A stretch of DNA of 50,994 bases from Desulfomicrobium sp. (GTDB taxonomy: Bacteria > Desulfobacterota > Desulfovibrionia > Desulfovibrionales > Desulfomicrobiaceae), in contig JANJWV010000181.1 in the NCBI GenBank assembly GCA_024709365.1, positions 1 through 50,994 on the forward strand, written 5' to 3'. Below are positions 20,735-24,221 of the stretch, one piece after another; position 1 is the first letter of the stretch, and every line of letters begins with the position of its first letter. Both the position numbers and the translations under genes were made by a program. Below the pieces are notes generated by a model. It was not told the DNA's origin. It ran no database searches and saw only the letters and a program-made list of their open reading frames with translations.

Positions 20735-22003
20735 CTACATCTTGGTCGCAGCAGCGTGGCTCTGCATCTTGATCTCGACCTTCTCGGTCAGAGAGGAGTA
20801 GTATTCGCGCAGGATGTCCAGGACTTCGTCGCGGCCGAAGTGGTCGGCGACGGGGGCGCCTTCGGACAGGGCCTTGCGCAGCTTGGTGCCGGACAGGACC
20901 ACGCGGTCTTCCTTGCCGTGCGGGCAGGTGCGCAGGGAGGCCATGCCGTCACACTTGTAGCAGTAGAAGGTCCAGTCGATCTTCATGGGCTGGGTGATCA
21001 GGTCCTTGCCGGCGCCGAGGTTCTTGGGCACGCGGTCAAAGATTTCCTGAGCTTCGAACAGGCCGTAGAAGTCGCCGACACCGGCGTGGTCACGACCGAT
21101 CAGCATGTCGGAAACGCCGTAGTTCTGGCGGAAGGTGGCGTGCAGCAGGCCTTCGCGGGGACCGGCGTAACGCATGTCGAGGGGGTAGCCGCCCTGCACG
21201 ACGTTGGCCTTCACGAAGTACTTGTCGATGAGGGTGTCGATGCACTTGATGCGCACTTCAGCCGGGATGTCGCCGGGCTTCAGGTTGCCGACCAGGGAGT
21301 GGATGAACACGCCGTCGCACACTTCAACGGCGATCTTGGCCAGGAATTCGTGGGAGCGGTGCATGGGGTTGCGCAGCTGCAGAGCGGCGACCTTGCTCCA
21401 ACCCTTCTCTTCGAAGGTGGCGCGGGCTTCGGCCGGGGACATGTAGCAGCCGGGGAATCTGTCGCGGTAGTCGCCTTCGGACAGGACCTTGACCGGGCCG
21501 GCGACGTTGTACTTCTTCTGAGCCATGACCATCTGCACGCCGGGGTGATCCTTCGGGGCGATTTCCCAGAACTTGTCGTCCGCGGACTCTTCGCCCTGGC
21601 CCTTGTAGACCTTTTCGCATTCCCACTTCTTGTCGGCTTCGGTCATTTCGTACACTTCGGTGACCTTCATGGTCGCCATGAACACGCCCTTCTTGGGGTC
21701 GAACAGGGCGATCTCTTCACCGACCTTCACTTCCTCGTCCATGTCCAGGGTCACGGGCACGGGCCAGAAGGTGCCGTCGGCCAGCGTGAAGTTTTCACAA
21801 ACGGACTTCCAGTCGGCCTTGGACATGAAGCCGTTCAGCGGGCTGAACCCGCCGATGCCCATCATGATCAGGTCGCCCTTGGCGCGGGGGCTGATGTCGA
21901 TCTTCTTCAGACCTTCGGCCTTCTTCTGCTCGGCAGCGAGTTCAGCGCCCTGAAGCAGACAGCAAACCAAACCTTTTCCACCATGCGGGGGTACGAGAGC
22001 CAT
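20735..22003 (-). CDS. sat: Sulfate adenylyltransferase (ATP sulfurylase)
   Basis: Activates sulfate with ATP to APS and pyrophosphate, the first step of dissimilatory sulfate reduction. 422 residues, the homo-oligomeric form. Catalytic motifs [11 protein letters not shown] (209-219) and GRDHAGVG (303-310) are intact. Cys348, Cys351, Cys360 and His362 (CYKC...CPH) form a zinc-site pattern. Start ATG 22003 has AGGAGG. It is a single-gene unit with its own terminator, upstream of aprBA on the same strand. A Rex-like site lies in its leader. No pyrophosphatase gene is seen in the window. Confidence 0.98.
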
Positions 22004-22093: not shown

Positions 22094-22320
22094 CCTTTTT
22101 GTGATTTTTTTATCAACCTCCTTTCAACCCGTCATGAAACATCTCCCCTTTCGGTGAGCTCAAACATAAATCTTTCTATTTCGGCATGTTGCATTCTTAC
22201 GCGCCAACAACCCCTTGCAATCCGTACTTTCTTATTGTTAAACAACCCTATTGTTCCCTGAGTAATCGCTGCGTTCATCTACCCATGAACCAGCAACACC
22301 CTAGCCCCGAAGCGAATCGA

Positions 22321-23973
22321 ATGGCCGAAAAACACACGACCCTCTCACTCACCCAGGAACTGGCGCAGCTCGACGAACGCCTCGTGTCCCTCATTGCCGC
22401 CCGCACCAACCTTCTATCTCGGGCGGCTGCGTCCCGCCGTGCAAAAAACCTGGGCATCACCGACCCGAACCAGGAAAAGGTCCTGTGGCAGGTCTGGAGG
22501 GATTCGTCCAAGGGCGACAATCTCGAGCCCCAGATCCTCAAGAAGATCTTTCACCTGACCAACAACCTGTCCTACGCCCGCGTCGAGAAGAACACCTCCA
22601 ACGACAAGCCCCTGTGCCTCTATCCCAGGCGCAAACCCGTCAACATAGACCTGTCGGCCCCGCGCGACCAGATCCTGCGCAGCATGATGTTCTTCCTCGG
22701 CGCCACGAATCCCACGCCCCTGACGGTGGCCCCGTTCCAGGGCAACGACATCTCGCTCGAACTCATCAACGCCCTGAACCTCTGCGGCTTCAACCTGACC
22801 TTCCAGAACCGCGAGTGCTCGACGCAGCCGGTCTCGTCCTGGTCCCTCGACAACAAGATCATCTACGCCGGCCAGAGCAAGTTCCATTTCTACCTGTTGC
22901 TCTGCCTTGCGCTGGGCCAGGTGACCCGGGCCAAGTTCACCGGCTCGACCAAGCTGAAGATTCACGACGTCAGACCCGTCCAGGATCTGCTGCCCAAGCT
23001 CGGCGCCCGCCTGACCATCGTCGAGCCTCACAGCAACGGCGTTCCCGTGCGCGTGGAATCAAGCGGCCAGCTGCCCGACAGCATCTTCATTCCCGAAGGC
23101 ATGTCCAGGAAGTTCATCCTCGCCCTGGCCGTTGCCGCCACCACCTTCAAATCCGGACTGACCATCCGCCTGCACGAGTCCTATGCAGGCAGCAAGCTGC
23201 TGCGCAAGGGCCTCATCTTCCTGCAGCAGTACATTCCGGAAGTGCAGTACGAAGGGACCGGCATCATCATCCCGCCTGCGCCGATGAACCTCAACCTCTC
23301 CTCCGTCGACATCCCGGTGGACCCGCTCATGAGCCTGCACCTGCTCACGCTGCCGTTCTTCGTGGACGGGAACGTGGTGCTGCACGGCAAGTGGCCGGAG
23401 TACGTGCCGCACCTGCAGGACATCATGGACATCCTCCACGAGTTCGGCCTGCGCATCAACGTCGGCGCAGACCAGATCTCCTCGCGCATGGGCAACAGGC
23501 CCAAGCAGCTTTCCATTGATCTTACATACTGCCAGGAGTACCTGCCCCTTGTCCTGGCCATGGCCATGGGCCTTCGCGGCAAGTGCGCCATCACCCTGGA
23601 CACCTCCCGCGAGGACGTCGAGCACGCCCAGGACATGCTCGAGAACCTCGGCGCAGGGTACTCCATCGAGCCCGGGCTCCTGCAGGTCGGACTCCCGGCG
23701 GCGCCGCAGGCGAACAAGAAAAGCGGCGAGTCGCCCTGGCAGAGTCCCGGCCCCTACTGGACCCTGGCGGGCGCGCTCATCTCCTTTACCCATCCCGGGC
23801 TGTGCATGAGCAACGCCGACAACATCACCTCCGCATGGCCCTGGTTCTGGAAGATCTTCATGAACCTCCCGGACCCGCAGAACTTCATCAACCCGCCGCG
23901 CAGCGAAGAACAGGAAGACGAAACCCGCGATGACAAGCCCAAGCGCAAGCGAATCAGAATCTCCACAGACTGA
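22321..23973 (+). CDS. Chorismate mutase-like / EPSP synthase-like fusion, probably non-catalytic
   Basis: 550 residues. Residues about 9-90 resemble an AroQ chorismate mutase (LAQLDERLVSLIAARTNLL, then TDPNQEKVLW). Residues about 104-520 follow the EPSP synthase repeat pattern. By hand alignment to E. coli enzymes, key residues are changed. In the mutase, the Arg of DPxRE is Gln51. In EPSPS, Lys22 becomes Arg115, Ser23 becomes Asp116, Asp313 becomes Glu406, the DHR motif with Arg386 is replaced by GPYW, and Lys411 becomes Ala505. Arg27 is kept (Arg120). The frame is open with GC-ending codons, so it is under selection as protein. The C-terminal tail is charged. Start 22321 is chosen over 22285 and 22186 because codon use upstream is atypical; none has a good Shine-Dalgarno. 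Function unknown. Confidence 0.75.
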   Translation: MAEKHTTLSLTQELAQLDERLVSLIAARTNLLSRAAASRRAKNLGITDPNQEKVLWQVWRDSSKGDNLEPQILKKIFHLTNNLSYARVEKNTSNDKPLCLYPRRKPVNIDLSAPRDQILRSMMFFLGATNPTPLTVAPFQGNDISLELINALNLCGFNLTFQNRECSTQPVSSWSLDNKIIYAGQSKFHFYLLLCLALGQVTRAKFTGSTKLKIHDVRPVQDLLPKLGARLTIVEPHSNGVPVRVESSGQLPDSIFIPEGMSRKFILALAVAATTFKSGLTIRLHESYAGSKLLRKGLIFLQQYIPEVQYEGTGIIIPPAPMNLNLSSVDIPVDPLMSLHLLTLPFFVDGNVVLHGKWPEYVPHLQDIMDILHEFGLRINVGADQISSRMGNRPKQLSIDLTYCQEYLPLVLAMAMGLRGKCAITLDTSREDVEHAQDMLENLGAGYSIEPGLLQVGLPAAPQANKKSGESPWQSPGPYWTLAGALISFTHPGLCMSNADNITSAWPWFWKIFMNLPDPQNFINPPRSEEQEDETRDDKPKRKRIRISTD

Positions 23974-24178
23974 GGCCATCGAGCGGGACATCGACCGCAT
24001 CCGGACGGAACAGGCCGCCATCCAGACCCGGGTCCGGGATCTGCTGCAGCGCGAGGACCCGGCCAACGGCGTCGTCTTTCACGACGAAATCTTCCGGCTG
24101 CAGCAGGACAAGCTGCGCATGGACACGGAAATCCAGTTCCTGCAGGTCAAGCTGCGACGGCTCACATCCACCTGGTGA
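23930..24178 (+). CDS. Small coiled-coil protein overlapping the CM/EPSPS-like gene
   Basis: 82 residues, highly charged, with long helical heptad-like stretches (IERDIDRIRTEQAAIQTRVRDLL; FRLQQDKLRMDTEIQFLQVKLRRL). No cysteine, no membrane segment. It starts 44 bases before the end of the preceding gene in another frame, which suggests coupled translation, and is closed by a strong terminator 13 bases after its stop. Codon use is GC-ending as in real genes here. Not recognised; it may be a partner of the upstream protein. Confidence 0.65.
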   Translation: MTSPSASESESPQTEAIERDIDRIRTEQAAIQTRVRDLLQREDPANGVVFHDEIFRLQQDKLRMDTEIQFLQVKLRRLTSTW

Positions 24179-24190
24179 ACCAGACACTAC

Positions 24191-24221
24191 AGGCTCCCGG
24201 CTTCGGCTGGGAGCCTTTTTT
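24191..24221 (+). terminator. Terminator after the small coiled-coil gene
   Basis: AGGCTCCC and GGGAGCCT arms with a CTTCGG-type loop, followed by six T residues. Confidence 0.9.

Follow-up and report, generated by a model that had tools for sequence, protein, structure and literature searches.

Bifunctional proteins in which an AroQ-type chorismate mutase (CM) is fused to another enzyme (CM-PDT, CM-PDH and DAHPS-CM) remain catalytically active and function in aromatic synthesis. In feedback-controlled DAHP synthases, the mutase domains act as ligand switches. Pseudoenzymes are described in two reviews as enzyme folds that are under selection after loss of catalytic residues (PMC5106787; PMC10211241). 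In the open-access literature searched, neither a fusion of chorismate mutase to EPSP synthase (EPSPS) nor an EPSPS pseudoenzyme was found described.

The order Desulfovibrionales consists mostly of sulfate breathers, and almost every member encodes a protein, termed here CMEP, in which an AroQ-type domain is followed by an EPSPS-fold domain. Automatic annotation would tend to label this protein chorismate mutase or EPSP synthase; by sequence it is most likely neither.

The CMEP gene and the fold of its product

The window, i.e. the whole 50,994-nucleotide stretch of Desulfomicrobium DNA analysed, belongs to a Desulfomicrobium-like draft genome with a completeness of 98.55%. Features of the locus are listed in Table 1. 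The CMEP reading frame has its ATG at 22321 and a stop codon ending at 23973, and the frame is open from 22186; a possible alternative in-frame ATG is at 22288. A start at 22321 or 22288 is favoured over one at 22186 because a non-coding block conserved in the genus lies in between. This block may act as the promoter or a regulatory element of CMEP, and no match to the sigma-70 consensus was found in it. The gene is divergent from sat, as read in the initial annotation, with 317 bp between the two start codons. Rex represses sat in D. vulgaris (PMC7531388), and the Rex-like site close to the sat start would be in line with such control. No Rfam family match was found anywhere in the window. 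A second Rex-like sequence is present in the sat/CMEP intergenic region at positions 22099-22116 and is conserved in most of the genus.

Table 1. Features of the CMEP locus, in positions of the window
Feature	Position	Strand	Remarks
CMEP, pseudo chorismate-mutase/EPSPS fusion, 550 aa	22321..23973	+	ORF, CM_2 and distant aroA matches, model
AroQ-type three-helix domain	22348..22590	+	Helices at residues 10-41, 49-66 and 70-90; R28 and E52 family-invariant
EPSPS-fold domain, ligand-binding residues lost	22612..23874	+	About residues 98-518; profile and model
Family-specific conserved cluster in one EPSPS repeat	22912..23067	+	Residues 198-249
C-terminal basic motif, RKRI here	23944..23955	+	RRR[I/V] in most of the family
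sat (ATP sulfurylase), divergent neighbour	20735..22003	-	
s82, 82-aa helical-hairpin protein	23930..24178	+	Overlaps 3' end of the fusion gene
Intrinsic-terminator-like hairpin 3' of s82	24191..24216	+	Conserved in most of the genus
Rex-like site TTGTTATTATCTTCACAA	22028..22045	.	Close to sat start; conserved in most of the genus
Genus-conserved non-coding block	22214..22241	+	80-107 bp upstream of the fusion start

A canonical aroA is also present in the host genome, inside a pheA-aroA-tyrA cluster on another contig (C176, L002), and the genome encodes MurA and a canonical chorismate mutase (PheA) as well. Thus, the fusion is the third EPSPS-fold protein and the second AroQ domain of its host. 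The true aroA rules out the fusion as the sole aroA-like gene of the genome, a case that the initial annotation had named as contrary to its reading.

At the sequence level, the N-terminus matches Pfam CM_2 (E=6.5e-9; 36.3 bits versus a gathering score of 27), and the AlphaFold2 model displays the three-helix AroQ fold. Residues 137-425 match the aroA model TIGR01356 with E=1.1e-9 and 37.7 bits, and the fusion thus misses the curated EPSP synthase equivalog cut-off of 287 bits; the canonical AroA of the same genome scores 376 bits. The window protein searched alone has no match to Pfam EPSP_synthase. A profile of the fusion family matches a solved EPSPS with E=3e-30 over profile positions 98-513, and a profile-to-profile comparison gives an EPSPS match of 1.3e-41 over the whole length. 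The AlphaFold2 model of the single chain (pLDDT 91.5, pTM 0.88) has EPSPS structures as its best PDB matches, with E down to 2.8e-24, a TM score of 0.84 by target length and an rmsd of 3.5. Profiles and model together reveal a complete two-domain EPSPS fold. The two consecutive shikimate-pathway folds originally proposed from hand alignment are therefore found by the HMM searches and structure prediction that had been suggested as a check: CM_2 is above its cut-off, the EPSPS profiles match, and the EPSPS fold is in the model.

Residues lost, kept and newly conserved

The EPSPS site was compared between 31 AroA proteins (30 from Desulfovibrionales and that of E. coli) and 81 fusion proteins. 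The 18 ligand positions have a mean entropy of 0.05 bits in AroA, versus 1.41 bits overall. At the homologous positions of the fusion proteins the entropy is 2.78 bits versus a domain average of 2.27 bits; these positions are at the 99th percentile of variability, a level that only about 0.8% of random position sets reach. K22, S23, R27, R124, S169-Q171, D313, K340, E341, R344, D384-R386 and K411 are kept in 31 of 31 AroA proteins, and the S3P/PEP residues are all lost in the 81 fusion proteins. Profile alignment places Q117 at K22 and I118 at S23; R386 is replaced by Y479 and K411 by S504/A505. These four losses had been noted by the initial annotation and hold, and its view that Arg27 is kept is not supported, as the profile alignment gives M122 at this position and R120 lies two places earlier.

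R28 and E52 of the mutase domain do not vary (81/81 fusion proteins) and are likewise retained in 13 genomes checked separately. K39 is represented by R in 58 and by K in 5 of the 81 proteins, and D48 is retained in 69, with D48 and R39 varying or sitting in gaps in several genomes. R11, R51, S84 and Q88 are lost and variable. The mutase arginine reported earlier as lost (DPxRE to DPNQE) is R51, now Q51. The fusion therefore does not have the full AroQ active-site set (R11, R28, K39, D48, R51, E52, S84 and Q88), and the eight CM active-site positions have an entropy of 1.47 bits versus a domain average of 2.38 bits (p about 0.002). By these residues, the EPSPS site has been given up and the mutase site is half retained. 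The original proposal that both active sites are lost stands for EPSPS but not for the mutase, where R28, K39 (as R39), D48 and E52 remain. By such residue tests, either name, EPSPS or chorismate mutase, would be wrong for this protein.

A new conserved patch is found at residues 198-249, in the EPSPS repeat that holds the R124 position. It includes K205, L212, K213, D216, R230, P236, R244 and E246, and R230 and E246 are invariant in 81 of 81 fusion proteins. More than one-third of the fusion-conserved positions that are not common to AroA fall within this patch. Outside of it, conserved positions are mostly Gly, Pro, Leu, Trp and Phe, many of them common to AroA.

The C-terminal basic motif is preceded by a linker of low confidence in the model (pLDDT below 50). 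The RRR[I/V] tail is found in nearly all members, including those without an overlapping s82 gene. Its retention in genomes without s82 rules out the motif as a by-product of the overlap.

Distribution, descent and genomic neighbours

Homologues of the fusion are present in 178 of 199 Desulfovibrionales genomes, and in 162 of the 180 of good quality, and none was found in the 287 genomes sampled from the rest of the phylum. Scores are 579-727 bits for members versus 165 bits for the next best protein, an ordinary AroA without a mutase part. In the tree the family is one clade (support 100/100) on a stem of 3.1 changes per site, and it has a single origin, probably early in Desulfovibrionales. 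With so long a stem, the tree gives this clade no definite place among the AroA proteins. With the family profile, AroA proteins of other Desulfobacterota score up to 165 bits versus about 55-68 bits, in partial matches, for the order's own AroA. The higher scores hint, short of proof, that the EPSPS part came from another AroA lineage. Unusually many aroA-profile matches (six and seven) are found in two draft genomes, G017 and G051, and these are perhaps fragments, contamination or paralogues.

Within the genus, dN of the fusion is 0.024-0.118 and dS is 0.27-1.4, with dN/dS about 0.1 or less; in none of the four genome pairs compared does its dN exceed the AroA value. The fusion is under strong purifying selection and is a maintained protein. 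Order-wide presence and low dN/dS bear out the earlier claim of such maintenance, and they rule out local decay or a pseudogene. The gene is retained in reduced genomes of 1.4-1.7 Mb (G125, G090 and G102). Clean losses are found in four genera (g17, g21, g32 and g34). In a single-contig genome of the window's genus, G052, the gene appears to be frameshifted (G052:C1:1322839-1324475, L021), which is either real decay or an assembly error. The missing gene in four genera, together with the apparent frameshift, indicates that the fusion is not essential throughout the order.

Canonical AroA and PheA are found in nearly all genomes of the order. Two genomes, G102 (1.7 Mb, 99% complete) and G185 (98% complete), have no AroA over the cut-off, no chorismate synthase (AroC) and no other CM_2 match. 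Both encode an intact fusion (loci L203 and L204) with R28, E52, R230, E246 and RRRI. Lacking AroA, chorismate synthase and a canonical chorismate mutase, the two organisms are probable aromatic auxotrophs. The fusion gene does not lie beside an aro cluster in the loci examined. As to sulfate reduction, nine fusion-bearing genomes of at least 90% completeness have no match to AprA (G028, G037, G041, G046, G090, G102, G169, G180 and G187), and six further fusion-bearing genomes have only weak or paralogous AprA matches. In genera g26, g29 and g31 the lack of a proper AprA match in fusion-bearing genomes is consistent. Absence in a draft genome may represent a gap; what carries the argument is the number of near-complete genomes and the agreement within whole genera. 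All of the clean losses of the fusion are in genomes with AprA. Kept without the aromatic pathway or the sulfate-reducing enzymes, the fusion must have taken on another job. It is thus most likely neither a regulator of the aromatic pathway nor a sulfate-activation protein, despite its neighbours.

Among 60 sampled loci, aprB is divergent upstream of the fusion in 35 and sat is upstream in 21. The conservation next to sat that had been proposed for checking is thus found in only 21 of these loci. Downstream, acn and ppiD are each present in 35 of the 60 loci. The closest neighbour is s82, which begins within the 3' end of the fusion gene and was detected by BLAST at 43 of 60 loci. s82 represents a previously undescribed protein family, a conserved helical hairpin encoded by 151 of the 199 Desulfovibrionales genomes. 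The window member has no Pfam family above the cut-off, other members show only scattered weak coiled-coil matches in Pfam, and a fold search yields only generic coiled coils. Given the terminator-like hairpin 3' of s82, the fusion gene and s82 probably form a two-gene transcription unit that ends ahead of acn.

s82 is retained in the four genera that lost the fusion (g34 has the gene order sat-s82-acn, with the fusion gene cleanly missing), and no s82 was detected in g12 and g14, where the fusion is present. Each survives without the other, which rules out s82 as an obligate partner. At loci that have no apr, sat or acn close by, often only s82 is left beside the fusion, and in genomes without AprA the fusion is in unrelated neighbourhoods where at most s82 stays with it. 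A class I/II-like aminotransferase gene is found downstream of the fusion in three different genera without AprA; it adjoins the fusion gene in two loci (L204:1916-3112 and L205:7547-8746) and is about 1.3 kb away in the third (L085:7946-9157). By gene order, D. vulgaris Hildenborough would be expected to have an orthologue upstream of aprB. A first guess for it, DVU1062-1065, is rejected since DVU1063 is a flagella regulator, and a second guess is DVU0843-0845; in the open-access literature searched, nothing on the orthologue was found.

Possible functions and relation to known systems

The fold is kept, the EPSPS residues are lost and the gene is under purifying selection, and the pseudoenzyme reading of the initial annotation is well supported in this respect; the EPSPS part would qualify as a pseudoenzyme, and the mutase part partly so. 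The preferred reading, with a probability of about 0.58, is that CMEP is a repurposed double shikimate-pathway pseudoenzyme that functions as a non-catalytic dimeric adaptor, with the patch and the tail docking a partner. Homology, fold, catalytic residue loss, a single origin, selection and retention in genomes devoid of the shikimate pathway or of AprA are computed, and the adaptor function is what we infer. Early in Desulfovibrionales, an AroQ-type mutase domain would have joined an EPSPS domain, after which EPSPS catalysis would have been abandoned and the product retained for another job. The three-helix AroQ part may dimerise. The EPSPS part would form a rigid platform whose former cleft no longer binds S3P or PEP, and residues 198-249 together with the RRR[I/V] tail would dock the putative partner. 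The latter may belong to general cell physiology rather than to aromatic synthesis or sulfate activation, with s82 a likely, not obligatory, associate. In broader terms, chances are about even that this order-defining shikimate fusion is a non-metabolic cell component, an adaptor or regulator usually encoded with s82, and that in some lineages, small genomes included, it has outlived aromatic synthesis as well as sulfate reduction.

Invariant R28 and E52 and the mostly kept R39 and D48 speak against an adaptor, in that a ligand may still be bound at the mutase site. The main rival to the adaptor reading is thus a ligand sensor, in which the half-kept mutase pocket (R28, R39, D48 and E52) would bind a small carboxylate and switch the EPSPS-like part or the tail. 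The entropy of the CM active-site positions, below the domain average, and the constancy of R28 and E52 in the 81 proteins and the 13 additional genomes point in this direction. However, four of the active-site residues, R11, R51, S84 and Q88, are gone and their positions variable, and several genomes have other residues or alignment gaps at D48 and R39. R28 and E52 could be structural, and both are retained in G102 and G185, which lack the enzymes for producing and consuming chorismate. A sensor is considered unlikely. Still less likely is a new enzyme on the EPSPS fold, with another substrate and with catalytic residues moved elsewhere. The charged cluster of R230, E246, R244, K213 and D216, invariant or nearly so and located in the R124 repeat, is consistent with this, and migrated catalytic residues may occur in some pseudoenzymes, according to a review (PMC10211241). 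Yet few positions of the domain vary as much as those of the former cleft, the EPSPS cleft offers no hint of a new activity, and besides the one patch, conservation is mostly of Gly, Pro, Leu, Trp and Phe, often as in AroA.

Two further readings follow from neighbours and ancestry. A role in regulating or assisting sulfate activation or APS reduction (Sat, AprBA) is suggested by the divergent aprB and upstream sat genes and by the Rex-like site in the region common to sat and the fusion. The fusion is nevertheless kept without AprA, in unrelated neighbourhoods where only s82 stays if anything does, and AprA is kept without the fusion in g17, g21, g32 and g34; such a role is rejected as very improbable. 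In the other reading, CMEP regulates aromatic amino acid synthesis, as raised in the initial annotation, and would do so by binding AroA, PheA or metabolites of these enzymes. Derivation from two enzymes of the aromatic pathway, and canonical AroA and PheA in nearly all genomes of the order, would agree with it. It is hard to square with the intact fusion in G102 and G185, which have no AroA, AroC or PheA-type CM, or with loci in which no aro cluster adjoins the gene, and it is the most improbable of all.

CMEP is an order-wide protein in a well-studied group, and its function is directly approachable through the genetics available in Desulfovibrio vulgaris. That it persists in small genomes, one of which has no aromatic pathway, suggests a general cell function. 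The family also constitutes a natural experiment in the repurposing of biosynthetic enzymes, where the ligand site is among the fastest-varying parts and a new surface has become fixed.

Compared with known systems, CMEP resembles EPSP synthase (AroA, TIGR01356, PF00275) in its complete two-domain fold and in the structural positions P114, G228, P242, P507, F509 and W510. It differs from AroA in the lost and variable S3P/PEP residues, in a score far under the TIGR01356 cut-off (37.7 versus 287 bits) and in its separate, long-stemmed clade (3.1 changes per site). Its three helices align without a gap with those of AroQ chorismate mutases (CM_2, PF01817; the E. coli PheA N-terminus), and R28, E52 and mostly K/R39 and D48 are kept; unlike these enzymes, it is without R11, R51, S84 and Q88, and its partner is an EPSPS fold and not PDT, PDH or DAHPS. 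With the bifunctional AroQ fusions (CM-PDT, CM-PDH and DAHPS-CM) it shares a mutase domain joined to an aromatic-pathway enzyme, but CMEP is also retained where the pathway is missing, and the site of its EPSPS part is lost. As in the pseudoenzymes described in two reviews (PMC5106787; PMC10211241), an enzyme fold is selected after residue loss. Unlike those pseudoenzymes, CMEP consists of two pathway enzymes fused to each other, with the site of one gone and that of the other half kept.
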